Assembly (NCBI GenBank): GCA_903839845.1
Contig: CAIMEA010000210.1
Coordinates: 1 to 48,272, forward strand
Length of the DNA: 48,272 bases
Direction: 5' to 3'
Source: an uncultured Hyphomicrobiales bacterium
GTDB taxonomy: Bacteria > Pseudomonadota > Alphaproteobacteria > Rhizobiales > Xanthobacteraceae
Positions 1 through 26,045 of this stretch are shown one piece after another (positions within the stretch are counted from its first letter, which is position 1; every line of letters starts with the position of its first letter). Below the pieces are notes generated by a model. It was given only the letters and a program-made list of their open reading frames with translations. It was not told the origin of the DNA and ran no database searches. The translations under genes and the position numbers were made by a program.

Positions 1-627
<627 letters not shown>

Positions 628-854
628 GGATGAGAAATTTAAAACCTGACTGGTCTTTTCGCTTGCGCAAAATTTCACGTTTTGACGAGGTCCACATCAC
701 CGATCACTCGTGAGAATGACCGGCAGTGTACCTTTGTAAAAACGTAGACCGTCAGAAGTCTCTTCCGACCGCGTGCACCGTGATGAATTGCTTCGTCACG
801 TTACCGCGGTCCGCAAGGACCCCGCCGTCCACGTTTCTCTTTCTTCCGATTTAC

Positions 855-1611: not shown

Positions 1612-3597
1612 TTGGACCACGCACGATCGCGCGGCGCGCATCGATTGAAAAATGCCGAGACAATCGAGCTCGGCAACGAAGCGCCGCTGTCGGTCGACGG
1701 CGGCACCTCCGCGTTCGTCGATCGCCGCCGCGTTTCAGTCCAGTGGTTTGCCGGCACGATTTTGACCGCTCTGTGCGGCGCTGCCTTGATGGGCGGCGCC
1801 GTTTTCACGTCGCTCGACGGCGAAACCAATTTCGCGTCGTTGCCGGAACGGGTTGAAGTGGCGCTGCGCGGCGCACTGACCGCCGGCGCCGAGCGGCTCG
1901 GCGCGCGCAAGAGCGACCGCCTGCAGACCGCGGACGAACCCTCCTTCGCCAAACAACTCATCCGCGTTTCCACCACCACGCGCGTCGGCAACCACGAAGT
2001 CGTGCGCGTGCGCCCCTTCGTGCGCATCGCCGGCAACCTGTCGCTGACCGTGTCCGATCTTTCCGCGTCCATCCCGGCGTTCAACCCGCAAACGCTGCTG
2101 GCGGAAAACGCGCCCGGCGGCACAGCGACGCCGGACGACGCGCCGGCCGCCGAACCGGACGCCGAGGTCGCCTTCGTCATGCGCGATCTCGTGCCGATGA
2201 TGCCGCGCCTGAAGATCGCGCTGCTCACGCCCAACGAAGAGGTGATGGCGCGCGTCAAGGAAGCCGCCGAATGGAGCGAGAAGGCCGGCAACCAGATCCA
2301 GGTCGGCGCCAACAACGTCACCGGCATCAAGCTGGCTTATGCCGGCACCGTTGCGACCGACCCTTATGCCGGCTTCGAGGCGCGCGTCGTGCCCGAGAAC
2401 ATTACGCTGATGCCAAAGACCGCCAACCAGACCACCGGCGGCAACAATTTCAACGAAAAAGTTGTCATCGCCAAAAAGGGCGAAGGCGTGACCTCGATCC
2501 TGCGCGATCTTGGCGCTGCGCCGGACGACATTGCCCAGGTTGTCGCCATCCTCGGCGCGCGCGGGCGCGACGGCGGCATCAAGGAAGGCCAGAAGCTGCG
2601 CGTGCTGATGGCGCCAACCGCCGGTTCGCCGCGGCCGCAGCCGATCCGCGTGATTGTCGCCGGCGACAGCGTGATCGAAGCGGTGGTGGCCTTGGCCGAC
2701 ACCGGCAAATATGTTTCGGTCGACGTGAAGAGCATCGACACCGAAATCGCCGACAATTCCGTGCAGACCGACGACGAGAACGACACATCGGGCGTGCGGC
2801 TTTATCAAAGCGTTTACGAAACCGCGCTGCGCAACCAGATCCCGCGCCCGATCATCGACGAATTGATCCGCATCTACTCCTACGACGTCGATTTCCAGCG
2901 CAAGGTGCAGCCAGGCGACTCGTTCGAGGTGCTGTACGCCGGCGAAGAAGAAACGCCGGGCGCCGACAGCCGCAACGACGTGCTGTTCGCCGCGCTGACC
3001 GTCGGCGGCGAAGCCAAGAAGTTCTATCGCTTTCAGTCGCCGGACGACGGTTTGGTCGATTACTATGACGAGGCCGGCAAGAGCGCGAAGAAATTTCTCG
3101 TGCGCAAGCCGGTGGTCGCCGGCATCATGCGCTCCGGCTTCGGCCTGCGCCGCCACCCGATCCTCGGCTACAGCAAGATGCACACCGGCGTCGACTGGGC
3201 GGCGCCGACCGGCACGCCCATCTATGCCGCCGGCAATGGCGTCGTCGAAAAGGCCGGATGGGAATCCGGCTATGGCAAATTCATCATGGTGCGCCACAAC
3301 AACGGCTACGAAACGGCTTATGGCCATATGAGCGCCTATGCGCGCGGCGTCGACGAAGGTAAGCGCGTGCGCCAGGGCCAGGTGATCGGCTTCGTCGGTT
3401 CGACCGGCCTGTCGACCGGCTCGCACGTCCATTATGAAATTCGCGTCAACGGTCGCTTCGTCGATCCGATGCGCATCAAGCTGCCGCGCGGCCGCGAACT
3501 CGCCGGTTCGATGATGTCGAGTTTCGAGATCGAGCGTGAACGGCTCGATGGCATCATGGCCCGCAAACCGGCGCGCGTCGCCTCGAGCGCCCGTTAA
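1612..3597 (+). CDS. M23 family metallopeptidase (membrane-anchored murein endopeptidase)
   Basis: Predicted cell-envelope peptidase that cuts peptidoglycan cross-links in the periplasm. The protein (661 aa from the chosen start) has one membrane segment at about residues 41-65, a LysM/OapA-like segment in the middle (around GEGVTSILRDLG) and a C-terminal LytM domain. The zinc ligands look intact: HTGVDW near residue 524 and HVHYE near 605, so it should be catalytically active rather than an EnvC-type activator. The start is taken as TTG at 1612, with GAGGGG a few bases upstream. The frame is open to another TTG at 1540, but that segment has no ribosome binding site and looks non-coding. It is monocistronic. 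Family call is firm, exact substrate is not. Confidence 0.9.
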   Translation: MDHARSRGAHRLKNAETIELGNEAPLSVDGGTSAFVDRRRVSVQWFAGTILTALCGAALMGGAVFTSLDGETNFASLPERVEVALRGALTAGAERLGARKSDRLQTADEPSFAKQLIRVSTTTRVGNHEVVRVRPFVRIAGNLSLTVSDLSASIPAFNPQTLLAENAPGGTATPDDAPAAEPDAEVAFVMRDLVPMMPRLKIALLTPNEEVMARVKEAAEWSEKAGNQIQVGANNVTGIKLAYAGTVATDPYAGFEARVVPENITLMPKTANQTTGGNNFNEKVVIAKKGEGVTSILRDLGAAPDDIAQVVAILGARGRDGGIKEGQKLRVLMAPTAGSPRPQPIRVIVAGDSVIEAVVALADTGKYVSVDVKSIDTEIADNSVQTDDENDTSGVRLYQSVYETALRNQIPRPIIDELIRIYSYDVDFQRKVQPGDSFEVLYAGEEETPGADSRNDVLFAALTVGGEAKKFYRFQSPDDGLVDYYDEAGKSAKKFLVRKPVVAGIMRSGFGLRRHPILGYSKMHTGVDWAAPTGTPIYAAGNGVVEKAGWESGYGKFIMVRHNNGYETAYGHMSAYARGVDEGKRVRQGQVIGFVGSTGLSTGSHVHYEIRVNGRFVDPMRIKLPRGRELAGSMMSSFEIERERLDGIMARKPARVASSAR

Positions 3598-3642
3598 CCC
3601 TTTAGAACATGACGAATCACCTTGTTCATGCTTTGTACAAGC

Positions 3643-5739
3643 ATGAATTATTCCGCGCCTTTGGCAGCGAACACTGCCTATCTCGGCAAGCTGAACGCTG
3701 AACAACGCCGCGCCGTCGAACATGGTGTGGCCTTTGGCGACGAAGCGTCCAACGAAGCAGCGCCGCTGCTGATCATTGCGGGCGCCGGCTCCGGCAAGAC
3801 CAACACCCTGGCGCACCGTGTCGCGCATCTCATCGTCGGCGGCGTCGATCCGCGCCGCATTCTGCTGCTGACTTTTTCGCGGCGCGCGGCGGCAGAGATG
3901 CAGCGGCGCGTCGAGCGCATCACCGCGCAGGTGTTCGGCGCGCAAACCGGCGCCGCCAACGGCAATCTCGCCTGGTCCGGCACCTTTCACGCCATCGGCG
4001 CGCGGCTGTTGCGCGAATACGCCCGTGACATCGGCCTCGATCAGGCCTTCACCATCCACGACCGCGAAGATTCCGCCGACCTGATGAATCTGGCGCGGCA
4101 CGAACTCGGCTTCTCGAAAACGCGCAAACGCTTCCCGATGAAAGGTACGTGCCTCTCGATCTATTCACGCGCGGTCAATGCCGAGACGCCGCTGCTGGAA
4201 GTGCTGGAAAATTTCTTTCCGTGGTGCGTGGAATGGGAAAGCGAACTGCGCGTGCTGTTTTCGGCCTATGTCGAAGCCAAGCAAAAGCAGAGCGTGCTCG
4301 ATTACGACGACCTGCTGCTCTATTGGGCGCAGATGATGAGCGAGGGCGCGATCGCGCAGGAGATCGCCGCGCGCTTCGATCATGTCATGGTCGATGAGTA
4401 TCAGGACACCAACAAATTACAGGCGTCGATCCTGCTCGGCTTGAAGCCGAATGGCCGCGGCCTCACCGTTGTCGGCGACGACGCGCAGTCGATCTATTCG
4501 TTTCGCGCAGCGACCGTGCGCAACATTCTCGACTTTCCCGGCCACTTCACGCCGCGCGCCCAGGTCATCACGCTGGAACGAAATTATCGCTCGACGCAAC
4601 CGATCCTCGCCGCCGCCAATGCGGTCATTGATCTCGCCAGCGAACGCTTCACCAAGAATTTGTGGTCGGACCGGCCATCGGCGGATCGTCCGCGCATCGT
4701 CAACGTCGCCGACGATGTCGGCCAGGCGCAATACATCGTCGAGAAGATTCTGGAGAATCGCGAAGCCGGCATCGTGCTGAAAAGCCAGGCCGTGCTGTTC
4801 CGCACATCGAGCCACAGCGCCGGGCTGGAAATCGAACTGACGCGGCGGAACATTCCCTTCGTCAAATTCGGCGGCCTGAAGTTTCTCGAGGCCGCGCACA
4901 TCAAGGACGTGCTGAGCGTGCTGCGCTGGGTGCACAATATGCGCGACCGCGTCTCGGGTTTTCGCGTCGCGCAGATGTTGCCCGGCATCGGTCCAAGCGC
5001 CGCCGGCCGGCTGCTCGATCGCATCTCGGAGAGCGGCGATGCCGCTGGCGCGCTGGCCGCGTTCAAGCCGCCGGCCGCGGCGCTCGAACATTGGCCGGAC
5101 TTCGAGGAAACCATCGGGCTTTTGCGCCGCAACGCGGCCGGCTGGCCGGGCGAAATCGACGCCGTCTGCCGCTGGTACGCGCCGCATCTCGATCGCATGC
5201 ACGAGGACGCCGCCACGCGGCAGGGCGATCTGGCGCAACTGGCGCAGATCGCCGCGACCTATCCAAGCCGCGAGCGCTTCCTTACCGAACTGACGCTCGA
5301 TCCGCCGAGCGCGACCAGCGACCAGTCCGGGCCGCCGCTGCTCGACGAGGATTATCTCATCCTGTCGACGATCCATTCCGCCAAGGGTCAGGAGTGGACG
5401 TCCGTTTATGTGCTCAACACGGTCGATGGCTGCCTGCCGTCCGACCTCTCGACTGGATCGACGCCGGAGATCGAGGAAGAACGACGCCTGCTCTACGTGG
5501 CGATGACGCGGGCCAAGGATCAGTTGCATGTGATGGTGCCGCAGCGCTTCTTCACGCACGGCCAACGCGGCAATGGCGACCGCCACGTCTATGCGCAGCG
5601 CACGCGCTTCATCCCGAATTCATTGCTGACGCATTTCGACCATCGCTCCTGGCCGCCGCCGCGCGCCGCACAAGCAGGCGCAAGCCCGGTGCGCACGCCG
5701 GTCGATGTCGGCGCGAGAATGCGCGGGATGTGGAAGTAG
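3643..5739 (+). CDS. UvrD/Rep-family ATP-dependent DNA helicase
   Basis: Superfamily 1A helicase that moves 3'-5' on single-stranded DNA using ATP, probably in repair or replication restart. All core motifs are present in order: Walker A AGAGSGKT, motif Ia GTFHAIG, Walker B VDEYQDT, motif III GDDAQSIYSFR, motif IV ERNYRST, motif V STIHSAKGQEW and motif VI YVAMTRAKDQL. Its length (698 aa) fits Rep/UvrD-type proteins; there is no AddA-type nuclease domain, and no AddB gene is adjacent. The ATG at 3643 is preferred because the protein is conserved in style from just after it; an ATG at 3628 and a TTG at 3622 are in frame. A composite palindromic repeat follows directly. Confidence 0.92.
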   Translation: MNYSAPLAANTAYLGKLNAEQRRAVEHGVAFGDEASNEAAPLLIIAGAGSGKTNTLAHRVAHLIVGGVDPRRILLLTFSRRAAAEMQRRVERITAQVFGAQTGAANGNLAWSGTFHAIGARLLREYARDIGLDQAFTIHDREDSADLMNLARHELGFSKTRKRFPMKGTCLSIYSRAVNAETPLLEVLENFFPWCVEWESELRVLFSAYVEAKQKQSVLDYDDLLLYWAQMMSEGAIAQEIAARFDHVMVDEYQDTNKLQASILLGLKPNGRGLTVVGDDAQSIYSFRAATVRNILDFPGHFTPRAQVITLERNYRSTQPILAAANAVIDLASERFTKNLWSDRPSADRPRIVNVADDVGQAQYIVEKILENREAGIVLKSQAVLFRTSSHSAGLEIELTRRNIPFVKFGGLKFLEAAHIKDVLSVLRWVHNMRDRVSGFRVAQMLPGIGPSAAGRLLDRISESGDAAGALAAFKPPAAALEHWPDFEETIGLLRRNAAGWPGEIDAVCRWYAPHLDRMHEDAATRQGDLAQLAQIAATYPSRERFLTELTLDPPSATSDQSGPPLLDEDYLILSTIHSAKGQEWTSVYVLNTVDGCLPSDLSTGSTPEIEEERRLLYVAMTRAKDQLHVMVPQRFFTHGQRGNGDRHVYAQRTRFIPNSLLTHFDHRSWPPPRAAQAGASPVRTPVDVGARMRGMWK

Positions 5740-5747
5740 CTTTCTTT

Positions 5748-5880
5748 CCCCTCTCCCCGCTTGCGGGGAGAGGGTGGCATTTGAGCGAAGCGAAAATGTC
5801 GGGTGAGGGGCCAATCACCAATACGGAGTTCGCAGCTTGCCCCTCACCCCGACCCTCTCCCCGTAAGAACGGGGAGAGGG
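5748..5880. repeat. Composite intergenic palindromic repeat (two hairpins around an inverted pair)
   Basis: Two strong hairpins (5749-5774 and 5853-5880, both built on CCCTCTCCCC/GGGGAGAGGG) flank an inner inverted pair GGGTGAGGGGC (5801-5811) and its complement (5839-5849). It lies between convergent helicase and clpB genes, where it could stop transcription from both sides. A shorter relative is at 13381-13402 and one of the same layout at 24237-24378. Confidence 0.8.
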
Positions 5881-5890
5881 AGAAGCGACG

Positions 5891-8485
<2,595 letters not shown>

Positions 8486-12330: not shown

Positions 12331-12364
12331 AAAAAAACCCGGCCTGAACAAAGGTTCGGCCGGG
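12331..12364 (-). terminator. Attenuator terminator of the SAM-II riboswitch
   Basis: On the minus strand CCCGGCCGAAC pairs with GTTCAGGCCGGG across a short loop (12338-12364) and is followed at once by seven T residues (12331-12337). It lies between the riboswitch and the metX start, so transcription can be stopped before the coding region. Confidence 0.85.
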
Positions 12365-12381
12365 ACACATGTTCCCCGGCC

Positions 12382-12436
12382 TGTTTAGCGAGTTGTTTAA
12401 CGTGGCTGCAAGCCGGCCGGCTCAAATGACCACGGA
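12382..12436 (-). promoter_or_regulatory. SAM-II riboswitch
   Basis: Minus-strand RNA with the SAM-II core: P1 strand CGTGG, the T/A-rich loop TCATTTGAG, the variable helix CCGGCCGG, CTTGCAG, the closing P1 strand CCACG, then TTAAAC and the pseudoknot tail CGCTAAA. SAM-II (metA motif) is known in Alphaproteobacteria upstream of metX, metA and metC. It binds S-adenosylmethionine and represses methionine genes. The match to the core pattern and the location in front of metX make this call strong. Confidence 0.93.
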
Positions 12437-12442
12437 ATGAAG

Positions 12443-12470
12443 ACTTAAGCCCGGGCTCACGGTCCGTCAA
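12443..12470 (-). promoter_or_regulatory. Promoter of the metX-metW operon
   Basis: -35 TTGACG (12465-12470), 16-bp spacer, -10 TTAAGT (12443-12448) on the minus strand. The predicted transcription start falls at the first bases of the SAM-II element. Confidence 0.65.
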
Positions 12471-24378: not shown

Positions 24379-24471
24379 GACGCAGACATGCGTCATCGCC
24401 CGTATTCTTTGCGGCCCCGGGCAGGCCGTCGCTTGAAAGTGCCTTCCGTCTTGCTCCCTCATGAAACGAGG

Positions 24472-24579
24472 GCGCGCGGAACGCCGGAGCCACGACGGCT
24501 CCGCAGCCCTGCGTAAGTTGCTAAGTAAGTACGCAGGTTAGTCACCACGAAACTGCCGGATCCCCGGCGTCCCGCGCGC
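24472..24579. repeat. Long palindromic repeat with 16-bp arms
   Basis: The arms 24472-24487 and 24564-24579 pair over 16 bp with one G-U mismatch. Inside are two more stems: GGAGCC/GGCTCC (24486-24502) and CCTGCGTA/TACGCAGG (24508-24537). The layout looks like a dispersed repeat of Bradyrhizobium-type genomes, but the family name was not identified. It may end or process the RNA made from the promoter at 24940-24968. Confidence 0.7.
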
Positions 24580-24589
24580 GATGTTTATA

Positions 24590-24933
24590 GGTTTGCTCCG
24601 CTGGGCCCCCGGTGGACTGACCTTTTCAGTCTTCCTCTTTCTTTAGGAAATGCCTATCCACCGCTGCGGGGTTTCAAAACGCGTAGTGAGGTTGCTACCT
24701 CGCCTTTGGTGCCGGTCGGCCCTGGTATCGAGCTTTCCGACGGCCGAAGGCTTCTGCCCCTTTGGCCACGCGCCAATCCGCCCCAGTGATGCGCGGCTGG
24801 CGCATCGGGACCAAGCGGCTTGGACCGCCGGCCGGGTGTTTGCGTCGCATCTCCAACGCCCCGACCAGCCACCGCTCCCCGCCCCAGCATCTGACGACGC
24901 TGATCAAACGCCCCTCGTAGATGGGACGGGATA
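24590..24933 (-). ncRNA. Candidate structured non-coding RNA (family not recognised)
   Basis: A near-consensus promoter starts transcription near 24933 on the minus strand. The transcript is GC-rich, rich in potential stems, and has no convincing open reading frame: small frames of 70-78 codons overlap each other in two phases. Near the left end a three-way junction can be drawn: outer stem GGTGGA/TCCACC, with hairpins TTCCT-N8-AGGAA and GACTGA-N5-TCAGTC. I looked for tmRNA (tag starting Ala-Asn-Asp-Asn), RNase P (GAGGAAAGTCC) and SRP RNA signatures and found none. A 6S-type or unknown RNA remains possible. The 3' end is uncertain and set at the long palindrome. Confidence 0.45.
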
Positions 24934-24939
24934 GCCGCG

Positions 24940-24968
24940 TATATAGTCCTAGGGATTTATGCAGTCAA
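24940..24968 (-). promoter_or_regulatory. Strong sigma-70-type promoter for the candidate RNA
   Basis: -35 TTGACT (24963-24968), exactly 17 bp, -10 TATATA (24940-24945) on the minus strand. It is one of the two best promoters in the window, with the rrn promoter. It lies 31 bp after the stop codon of the ribbon-helix-helix gene. Confidence 0.75.
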
Positions 24969-24999
24969 GGGGGAAGTCAACTTGGCGCGGTTCGCCGCA

Positions 25000-25197
25000 T
25001 TAGGCATCTGCTCGATTACGAGTTCGGCGGGCTGTCACCAGAGTTTGTCCGTTCACCAATTGCTCAAGGCGGCCAAGAATGAGGGAACGAGACACCTCGG
25101 CCCGATTGGCGCCGTACAAGCCGGTCTCAATCAAATCCTCAATCATTTCAATTGCTTGATTAGGAAGTGTGATTGAAAATTGTGTATTCTCTGCCAT
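25000..25197 (-). CDS. Ribbon-helix-helix protein (solitary CopG/antitoxin-like regulator)
   Basis: 65-aa protein from the ATG at 25197. The N-terminal beta-strand QFSITLP and two helices (NQAIEMIEDLIETG, NRAEVSRSLILGRLEQL) form a ribbon-helix-helix DNA-binding fold. The start is chosen because AGAGGG stands 7-8 bases upstream; an upstream in-frame ATG lies inside the operator region. Many such proteins are antitoxins, but no toxin gene is adjacent on either side. The promoter region carries four copies of a 6-bp half-site, which suggests autoregulation. Lower GC than the neighbours suggests acquired DNA. Fold call good, function open. Confidence 0.8.
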   Translation of the reverse strand: MAENTQFSITLPNQAIEMIEDLIETGLYGANRAEVSRSLILGRLEQLVNGQTLVTARRTRNRADA

Positions 25198-25214
25198 GGT
25201 GTCGCCCTCTACAC

Positions 25215-25253
25215 ACATTGCGTTCACAATGTATTGGCAATGTCAGGACATTG
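25215..25253. promoter_or_regulatory. Operator with four ACATTG half-sites
   Basis: Half-sites are ACATTG (25215-25220), CAATGT (25227-25232), CAATGT (25238-25243) and ACATTG (25248-25253). They form two inverted pairs, ACATTG-N6-CAATGT and CAATGTC-N2-GACATTG, spaced by 10-12 bp, about one helical turn. The site ends 18 bp before the RHH start codon. It fits tandem binding of an RHH dimer. Confidence 0.6.
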
Positions 25254-25304
25254 TCGTACACCTATAAACGAAAAGCGAATCGACTCATACGGGGTTTGTT
25301 CGCT

Positions 25305-25337
25305 AAAGAAAAAGGGCCCCCTCTTACGAGGGAGCCC
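25305..25337 (-). terminator. Intrinsic terminator of the tRNA-Thr gene
   Basis: On the minus strand GGGCTCCCTC pairs with GAGGGGGCCC over a GTAA loop (25314-25337) and is followed by TTTTTCTTT. It lies 7 bases after the tRNA CCA end. Confidence 0.9.
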
Positions 25338-25344
25338 ATAAAGT

Positions 25345-25437
25345 TGGCGAACCGGGTTGGACTCGAACCAACATTCTCCCGATTACAAATCGGGTGCTGT
25401 GCGATCAGGGGTGATCTTCCAGTTCAGCTACCGGTCC
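25345..25437 (-). tRNA. tRNA-Thr(UGU) with a 17-nt hairpin insertion in the D-loop
   Basis: 93-nt cloverleaf including an encoded CCA. Acceptor GGACCGG/CCGGUUC, D-stem GCUG/CAGC, anticodon stem CCCGA/UCGGG with loop UUUGUAA (anticodon UGU, 25385-25387), T-arm GUUGG-UUCGAGU-CCAAC. U8, A14, A15-U48, G18G19 and the T-loop residues are all conserved. The D-loop begins normally (AACUGGAA) but is then extended by 17 nt (25400-25416) holding a perfect GAUCA-CCCC-UGAUC hairpin. The discriminator base is G73. All stems are intact and a terminator follows, so it is probably expressed. It may be a functional but divergent tRNA, or a tRNA-like RNA with another role. No clear promoter was found upstream. 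Confidence 0.85.
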
Positions 25438-25470
25438 ACCGAATCCTTGATAAATTACTCGCTATCAAAG

Positions 25471-25504
25471 ACGCCTCGCCCTCACGGACGAGGCGTTTTT
25501 CTTA
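25471..25504 (+). terminator. Intrinsic terminator to the right of the tRNA gene
   Basis: Perfect stem ACGCCTCG (25471-25478) / CGAGGCGT (25489-25496) followed by TTTTTCTT. It points in the plus direction although the neighbouring tRNA is on the minus strand, so it may protect that region from readthrough. Bases 25447-25468 also contain TTGATA-N10-TATCAA. Confidence 0.7.
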
Positions 25505-25748
25505 TGCCCAGTTCCTTTGGATAAATCAACGCGACGAGACACAAAATCTTGACAACTGATGGCCCATTTAAACGGCCTGACACAACATATAGACGTTCGG
25601 TCTAGACCCGCTTTCCAAATTAGCCACTATATCTAGCGTGTTGATAAAGCTGTTAGTTTTTTGATTTTCGCCAGGTTACGTGGATTTGCACTGACCGCTT
25701 TCGATCGCCCGACGAATCGGCGGCGGGTTTAGGGGCATGGCGCAATCG

Positions 25749-26045
25749 TTTGTCGTCCCCGCGCAGGCGGGGACCTATAATCCCGGGGTTCAAATTTAAA
25801 GCGAAGCAGGCAAGGCAACGCCGGCTTCGTAGGGTGGCGCTGAGCGAAGCGAAGCCCACCGCTAACGTTTGCAAATGCAAGAGGTGGGCTCGGCGCGTTC
25901 CGCGCCTAAGCCCACCCTACAGGCCGTCATGCCCGCGAAGGCGGGCATCCAGCTCTTTCTTGATTAGCTGCGATTAAGGGCTGGGTCCCCGGCATAGGCA
26001 GCGCGAAGCGACGCCGTCCTTCGGACGGCTATGGCGGGGACGACG
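25749..26045. repeat. Mosaic of short intergenic palindromic repeats
   Basis: Several repeat units are joined: GTCGTCCCCGC...GCGGGGAC (from 25753), GTAGGGTGG (25829-25837) with its complement CCACCCTAC (25912-25920), CATGCCCGC...GCGGGCAT (around 25928-25950) and GTCCTTCGGACGGC...GGCGGGGACGAC at the end. Similar text occurs at 37729-37847. The stretch 25505-25748 to the left is AT-richer and shows no gene. Confidence 0.75.

Follow-up and report, generated by a model that had tools for sequence, protein, structure and literature searches.

The question raised by positions 25345 to 25437 of the stretch of DNA analysed here (48,272 nt, referred to below as the window) is what an additional tRNA gene with a hairpin of its own inside the D-loop is doing in the genome of an uncultured Hyphomicrobiales bacterium. 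The first-pass annotation had left three possibilities for this gene, namely a divergent functional tRNA, a tRNA with a removable insert and a tRNA-like regulator. The first of these proved to be the best supported, in view of compensatory changes in the acceptor stem, T stem and hairpin and of a constant anticodon arm, G73 and CCA. The reading preferred here, to which we would give an even chance, is that of an accessory Thr-type (UGU) tRNA with a structured D-loop extension, residing in a horizontally moved cassette that in some cases is cargo of an IS1595-family transposon within the same bacterial order.

The tRNA gene (25345..25437, minus strand) is complete, as had been claimed: it comprises 93 nt including the encoded CCA, and the Rfam family RF00005 matches it from 25437 to 25348 on the minus strand with a score of 57.3 bits (gathering threshold 29). 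All four arms, whose stems had been described as intact, can be read directly from the sequence and, together with the score above the gathering threshold, place the gene in RF00005. The acceptor stem (GGACCGG/CCGGUUC) consists of seven pairs, one of them G2-U71, and is accompanied by the D-stem GCUG/CAGC, the anticodon arm CCCGA-UUUGUAA-UCGGG, the variable loop AGAAU and the T arm GUUGG-UUCGAGU-CCAAC. The anticodon UGU (25385..25387, minus strand), in the 7-nt loop UUUGUAA, is constant in the three complete members of the family described below, and the encoded 3' CCA (25345..25347, minus strand) is retained in all three. The gene is also detected by ARAGORN, albeit as “tRNA-???” with the anticodon unplaced. 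In agreement with the annotation, the CCA (25347-25345) is accompanied by the tRNA's own intrinsic terminator (25337-25314), which the terminator scan places at 25314..25337 on the minus strand as a 10-pair stem followed by TTTTTCTTTA, and which is nearly identical in the window and in the two related genomes G032 and G312.

The extra hairpin, GAUCA-CCCC-UGAUC, occupies tRNA positions 22-35 of 93 (25403..25416, minus strand), as indicated by sequence, covariation and folds. A D-loop of 25 nt containing a hairpin of five perfect pairs around a 4-nt loop had been reported and is indeed present in the sequence; the insert length of 17 nt given at the time has to be corrected, since the hairpin measures 14 nt (25403-25416). 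It lies near the 3' strand of the D-stem, as stated, but not directly against it, because three nucleotides (GCA) intervene. The fold of the whole tRNA has a z of -1.83 and that of the window D-arm a z of -1.85, with 11 of 200 shuffles equally good in either case, and the D-arms of three relatives fold no better than shuffles (z -0.90, -0.20 and +0.99). The window hairpin by itself is not extreme against shuffles, and its support is comparative. In the minimum-energy folds of all four D-arm sequences, the CAG stretch pairs with C16-U17-G18 and not within the D-stem. As this stretch is invariant, comparison cannot decide between the D-stem and the alternative pairing, and as the lowest-energy folds skip the D-stem, the canonical D-arm rests on the tertiary contacts.

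The annotation had proposed a search for the same insert in relatives, and complete hairpin tRNAs were indeed found in two other genomes. By DNA search, the genus yielded two matching genomes out of 43, one of them that of the window, and the family four out of 391, three of which are true members (G000, G032 and G312); the G312 member belongs to another genus. The fourth match, in G273, is a different tRNA (L228:10206-10296) with an enlarged D-loop; judged by eye, its anticodon is GCU and its variable loop short. It adjoins an IS1-type transposase. A covariance search of 397 genomes of the order, which scored at most ten first-look candidates per genome and may thus have missed some, added no further long member among the matches listed. 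Pattern scanning of the genome collection returned two stretches, the G032 gene and one without a tRNA, and the same pattern returned two in viral contigs, one by chance and the other, in the contig L042, a hairpin-type tRNA of which only the 5' half is present. A broader viral pattern gave at least 120 stretches, none of them tRNA-like by simple T-loop, anticodon-arm and D-arm tests, and the other viral pattern scans contained no member among the matches listed. None of 50,697 phage records matched over 80% of the query; nine gave partial matches, three of these beneath annotated tRNA-Lys genes.

In the three complete members the D-stem, anticodon arm, G73 and CCA are invariant, while three acceptor pairs, one T-stem pair and two of the five pairs of the insert hairpin are changed on both sides. 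With only three sequences aligned, 94.9% of the stem cells are paired, as compared with 19.7-50.0% when the sequences are slid, and the unpaired cells belong to two pairs of the hairpin and one of the acceptor stem; the G312 tRNA has an A-G acceptor mismatch and three hairpin pairs only. Uncompensated stem decay was therefore not found in these three sequences (six pairs changed on both sides), and a simple pseudogene appears unlikely, because the anticodon arm, G73, CCA and terminator have been preserved and the changes in hairpin and acceptor stem are mostly compensated. Of the signs of a pseudogene that the annotation had named, a normal tRNA-Thr(UGU) elsewhere in the genome is present, whereas the changes in relatives are not random but mostly compensated.

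The idea of a removable insert fared less well, as the relatives found keep the hairpin at one place. An insert excised from the RNA after transcription, in the manner of an intron, has a precedent in archaea, in which tRNA introns can occur in the D-loop; the window tRNA resembles such archaeal tRNAs in having additional sequence at this site. It differs from them in that no bulge-helix-bulge was seen by eye at the insert borders on the folds, and we know of no tRNA-splicing machinery or splicing endonuclease in bacteria that could remove it. Moreover, inserts of 14, 12, 12 and 20 nt all stand at the one place and all have at least three pairs. Excision seems hardly credible. D-arms of unusual size are otherwise known from tRNA-Sec and others, and the accessible part of a review of non-canonical tRNAs describes the D-arm of tRNA-Sec as a 6-bp stem closed by a loop of 4 nt (PMC7609411). 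Unlike tRNA-Sec, the window tRNA has an ordinary D-stem and a separate hairpin within the loop, and the accessible part of that review contains no D-loop hairpin like the one described here (PMC7609411). Neither a transposon-borne tRNA nor a tRNA with a D-loop hairpin was found among titles and the beginnings of abstracts of the top-listed papers in the open literature.

The genome to which the window belongs (4.04 Mb in 240 contigs, 99.76% complete, 35 tRNA hits) contains an ordinary tRNA-Thr(UGU), the existence of which the annotation had wished to see checked, along with ordinary tRNA-Thr genes for GGU and CGU. Since the UGU anticodon is thus already served, the window tRNA is an extra gene and dispensable. 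All three ordinary genes have A73 and C2-G71, and in comparison with them the G73 of the window tRNA is unusual, as had been suspected. The window tRNA shares with ordinary bacterial tRNA-Thr(UGU) the cloverleaf, the UGU anticodon, G1-C72, U8, A14, G18-G19, the T-loop UUCGAGU and the encoded CCA; it departs from it in the 14-nt hairpin of the 25-nt D-loop, in G73 instead of A73 and in G2-U71 instead of C2-G71. It is an extra and divergent gene, and a duplicate of a host tRNA was rejected as its origin: once the insert is disregarded, the window tRNA comes closest to the host's tRNA-Lys(UUU) at 68.4%, and identity to the host's tRNA-Thr(UGU) is only 63.3%, in a comparison that took in 24 of the 35 tRNAs, Asn and Cys being among those omitted.

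Bacterial threonine determinants, as listed in the accessible part of PMC9976931, include G35, U36 and G1-C72, and further C2-G71, G4-C69 and G5-C68, with position 73 as a weak determinant. The window tRNA has the first three of these, while at the further pairs both it and the G032 tRNA have G2-U71, C4-G69 and C5-G68, and the G312 tRNA has G2-C71, G4-C69 and an A5-G68 mismatch. Because C2-G71, G4-C69 and G5-C68 are missing, the window tRNA is named Thr-type by its anticodon only, and its acceptance of threonine is putative.

The tRNA is part of a cassette consisting of a leader hairpin, the tRNA, its terminator, a conserved GANTC-containing promoter-like stretch and a gene for a protein resembling ribbon-helix-helix (RHH) regulators. 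A stretch spanning the upstream region, the tRNA, the terminator and most of the RHH gene (25037..25653, minus strand) is common with the Pseudolabrys MAG G032, with 77% DNA identity over 628 columns. The “solitary regulator” noted beside the tRNA turned out to be this RHH-like (ParD/NikR-like) protein of 65 aa (25000..25197, minus strand), which starts with ATG at 25197 in an ORF opening at GTG 25227 and which recurs next to tRNA genes in other genomes. It is so assigned from the sequence pattern and from weak matches to the CdrS and ParD (NCBIfam) and NikR families, all below cut-off; in Pfam none of the six RHH-like proteins reaches a family's cut-off, and the structure prediction is of low confidence (pLDDT 60). 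Searches with this protein gave hits in 4 of 296 family and 3 of 397 order genomes, the window's own included, in 1 of 123 class genomes, again the window's own, and in 1 of 3 genomes of the family of G425, which is G425 itself; no match was found in plasmids, phages or viral contigs.

The RHH protein was thus located at six loci, in the window, G032, G134, G109, G425 and G544, and in five of the six a tRNA or tRNA-like gene lies directly upstream in the same orientation, the exception being G544, where neither ARAGORN nor the model reveals one. From 35 tRNA hits in 4.04 Mb, we estimate the probability of such adjacency by chance at below about 1% per locus. The tRNAs themselves differ in kind. 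The window and G032 have the hairpin Thr(UGU), and G109 a plain Thr(UGU) with an ordinary D-loop. The G134 tRNA has the anticodon ACU on a poorly paired, mismatched anticodon stem, and its body resembles the host's Arg(ACG), at 72.7%, marginally more than it does Gly(GCC), at 72.0%. The G425 tRNA (L231:9682-9801), which lies inside an IS1595-type element, is a class II, Ser-like tRNA, nearest to the host's Ser(GGA) (82.2%) among six class II tRNAs compared; it has G73, CCA, a very long variable arm with an additional inner hairpin and the anticodon loop CUUUAAA, in which the anticodon UUA would read UAA. Both the G032 and the G425 tRNA were missed by ARAGORN and rest on Rfam. The same layout is found in G312, in which the hairpin Thr(UGU) is followed by a different, unrelated small gene for which no family was found in Pfam or NCBIfam. 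In G109, what looks by eye like a tRNA relic, lacking an anticodon arm, follows the Thr tRNA at L224:1780-1850 and precedes the RHH gene.

In G032, G425 and G544 the RHH gene and an IS1595-type transposase gene (called by Pfam in G032 and by similarity in G425) are arranged tail to tail, and the transposase gene is flanked by one for a DUF6471 protein. The cassette of G032 lies in a complete element of 3,729 bp with perfect inverted repeats of 26 nt, and that of G425 in one of 4,328 bp with perfect inverted repeats of 25 nt; both are surrounded by identical 8-bp target duplications (CGTGCGAG and GATAGTCG, respectively), so that both cassettes are enclosed in IS1595-family elements. Each element interrupts a gene for a glycosyltransferase of family 2, both halves of which match in G032 and one in G425, where the other piece is without a Pfam match. 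In G544 the transposase is present with no matching inverted repeat, and the element can be assigned to the family in part only; near the G134, G109, G312 and G273 copies no IS1595 transposase was found. It is known that passenger genes occur in the IS1595 family. The G032 and G425 elements agree with such transposons in the transposase, the terminal inverted repeats, the 8-bp duplication and the presence of extra genes, and are unlike them in that the cargo includes a tRNA and an RHH-like gene. Additional tRNAs on mobile DNA are likewise familiar from phages, from which the present case differs in that the tRNA/RHH cassette sits in a transposon in two relatives.

A tight link between tRNA and transposase was considered and rejected. 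The G032 transposase, searched against 229 genomes of the order, is found at 26 loci in 21 genomes; ARAGORN finds a tRNA in none of the 26, Rfam in one of the 20 loci given (L233, which is that of G425), and the hairpin-tRNA model (R1) matches in L233 and, weakly, twice in L247. As tRNAs are nearly absent from the IS1595 loci, the tRNA goes with the RHH gene and not with the transposase. The two weak matches in L247 (2964-3041 and 2556-2641; 19.6 and 16.4 bits) lie beside an IS1595-type transposase.

Several copies are found at one and the same gene. The tRNAs of G134, G109 and G273 lie upstream of a gene for a Mg-chelatase-type ATPase by Pfam (L225, L226 and L228), which we take to be comM, and the G544 element splits this gene (L232); comM thus recurs as an insertion site of such cassettes and elements. 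Pieces of comM beside a transposase are also seen in L244 and L255.

The window locus itself is of a different kind. The AT-richer pocket described earlier is real, with a GC content of 0.49 compared with 0.64 and 0.67 in the stretches on either side. Even with up to seven mismatches allowed, the window yielded no inverted repeat, and tblastn revealed no IS1595 transposase in the window and none in the genome at E <= 1e-70, so that the locus, unlike known IS1595 transposons with passengers, has neither transposase nor repeats and does not qualify as an element of this family. A 145-aa gene, without a Pfam match, lies ahead of the tRNA in both the G032 and the G425 element; no match to it was found in the window. 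With inverted repeat, transposase and 145-aa gene all missing, the window copy is an orphan cassette. The genes on its two sides adjoin each other in relatives: in G041, the nearest genome by neighbour gene, the flanks are common at 24393-24974 and 25820-25930 with unrelated sequence between them, and in other genomes of the genus, such as G003 and G039, the two genes are 12-19 nt apart.

Such an orphan, in a genome with an ordinary tRNA-Thr(UGU), might also be a decaying or silent tRNA left behind by a mobile element, all the more so as damaged-looking tRNAs occur in the family (the anticodon stem of G134, the relic seen by eye in G109 and the acceptor mismatch of G312). The three hairpin tRNAs, however, are mostly compensated and retain the anticodon arm, CCA, G73 and terminator, and decay is considered improbable. 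Still less probable, and indeed very improbable, is the view that the gene has been retained because phages or other elements integrate there, and not for its function as a tRNA. It derives its appeal from the phage-like contig L042, in which the 5' half only of a hairpin-type tRNA (L042:6707-6753), ending in the anticodon stem, lies close to a phage integrase gene (5041-6126, by Pfam) and could be an attachment site or a relic. L042 is, however, the sole viral contig with such a fragment among the matches listed in the pattern scans, no integrase was recognised by eye among the listed ORFs around the window cassette, and the landing-site view leaves both the link to the RHH gene and the position as transposon cargo unexplained. 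The hairpin of the L042 fragment, GAUCU/AGGUC, encloses 10 nt.

More serious is the third possibility left by the annotation, that of a tRNA-like regulator. It can be developed into a regulatory or effector RNA that by its tRNA shape binds or mis-feeds the translation machinery, with the RHH protein controlling an addiction- or defence-like module in which the RNA would be the active component. RHH folds are common in antitoxins, and the weak NCBIfam matches include ParD. The cassette tRNAs are odd (D-loop hairpin in the window, G032 and G312; UUA and a long variable arm in G425; ACU and a mismatched stem in G134), and several threonine determinants are missing. In addition, PADLOC finds candidate defence genes beside IS1595-type transposases: one of seven proteins (PDC-S42 in G032, L036:11769-12800) and three of ten proteins from nine other transposase loci, two in L235 and one in L256. 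The G109 tRNA, on the other hand, is an ordinary-looking Thr, and a terminator separates the RHH gene from the tRNA. No toxin gene adjoining the RHH gene was recognised among the ORFs read or scanned, so that the pair does not qualify as a type II toxin-antitoxin system. Nor would the UAA-reading tRNA be needed by the recognised long frames of the G425 element, which have TAA only at their ends; recoding of this element is accordingly unsupported for recognised frames of at least 100 codons. On balance, a regulatory RNA seems rather unlikely. The matches in the other transposase loci are to PDC-S13 and a type I specificity model (L235:501-1475 and 2929-3795) and to PDC-M59A (L256:2834-3853); no inverted repeat was found in L256.

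The RHH gene is preceded by a promoter-like stretch (25249..25283, minus strand) of the form TCGATTCGCTT-N-TGTACGACAATG, with a GANTC site and then ACATTG/CAATG repeats. A GANTC-bearing stretch precedes the small gene at the same alignment column in all seven loci, and a stricter promoter-like pattern is found in five of the seven and nowhere else in the loci compared. The sigma-70 scan gave no match for the conserved stretch and no sigma-70-type promoter in the window cassette. The GANTC site may mean that the RHH gene is under the control of CcrM methylation. Two adjacent GANTC sites occur at 25277-25286 of the window, one of them at the conserved position of the promoter-like stretch. At the other end of the cassette, a leader hairpin directly upstream of the tRNA (25467..25500, plus strand) was found by our own loose criteria and is not listed by the standard terminator scan. 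Its T-run is slightly longer in the antisense direction (5 T versus 4 T). Our script finds a hairpin upstream of the tRNA in the window, G032, G134, G109 and G425, and in each of the five the T-run is stronger in antisense (4-6 T versus 1-4, with none in sense in G134); in G312 the script finds none, though a hairpin folds there. The leader hairpin may thus be a terminator for transcription that opposes the tRNA.

If the gene is an accessory Thr-type tRNA, as preferred here, it would be transcribed and ended by its own terminator, and the hairpin, should it stay in the mature RNA, would protrude between G19 and A21, where the tRNA has its outer corner, and would not interfere with the contacts between D-loop and T-loop. 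Threonyl-tRNA synthetase could then charge the tRNA, perhaps weakly, through G35, U36 and G1-C72, and the charged tRNA would read ACA codons, of which the neighbouring core genes make little use. In a tiny sample, ACA makes up 3 of 6 Thr codons in the window RHH gene versus 4 of 107 in five core genes, and the G032 element is slightly enriched in it over its flanks (6 of 51 Thr codons versus 3 of 73). No ACA excess is seen in the G425 element (9 of 39 versus 8 of 32). The RHH protein presumably controls its own gene via the repeats that precede it. The benefit could lie in a larger supply of this tRNA, or in a spare that escapes recognition by tRNA-attacking factors. The missing determinants, the dispensability of the gene, the rarity of members, the minimum-energy folds of the D-arms, the mismatch and reduced hairpin of G312, the want of an ACA excess in G425 and of a sigma-70 promoter, and the failure of ARAGORN to detect the G032 and G425 tRNAs all count against this reading.

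A bolder and rather doubtful generalisation is that IS1595-type transposons of this alphaproteobacterial order, carrying altered tRNAs with a dedicated RHH-like regulator, form a new class of mobile module. The altered tRNA, which across the cassettes shows a D-loop hairpin, an enlarged variable arm or a changed anticodon, including a UAA-reading one, would do the work of the module by altering or shielding translation under phage attack or while the element becomes established, and the RHH switch would be tied to replication by methylation. Since the pairing of tRNA and RHH gene recurs and is located in a transposon in two genomes, a horizontal route for decoding capacity is possible: mobile DNA may spread reshaped tRNAs, and the capacity to decode could move with them. 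Should the mature RNA retain the insert, a bacterial tRNA can bear a free-standing hairpin at its outer corner and would offer a natural test of what the ribosome, synthetase and modifying enzymes tolerate. The UAA-reading Ser-like tRNA of G425 makes an effect of the cargo on translation directly testable.

Apart from the cassette, the window contains a SAM_alpha riboswitch at 12364-12443 (minus strand, 84.7 bits) and, at the contig end, the 5' part of a 16S rRNA gene (1-628, minus strand).
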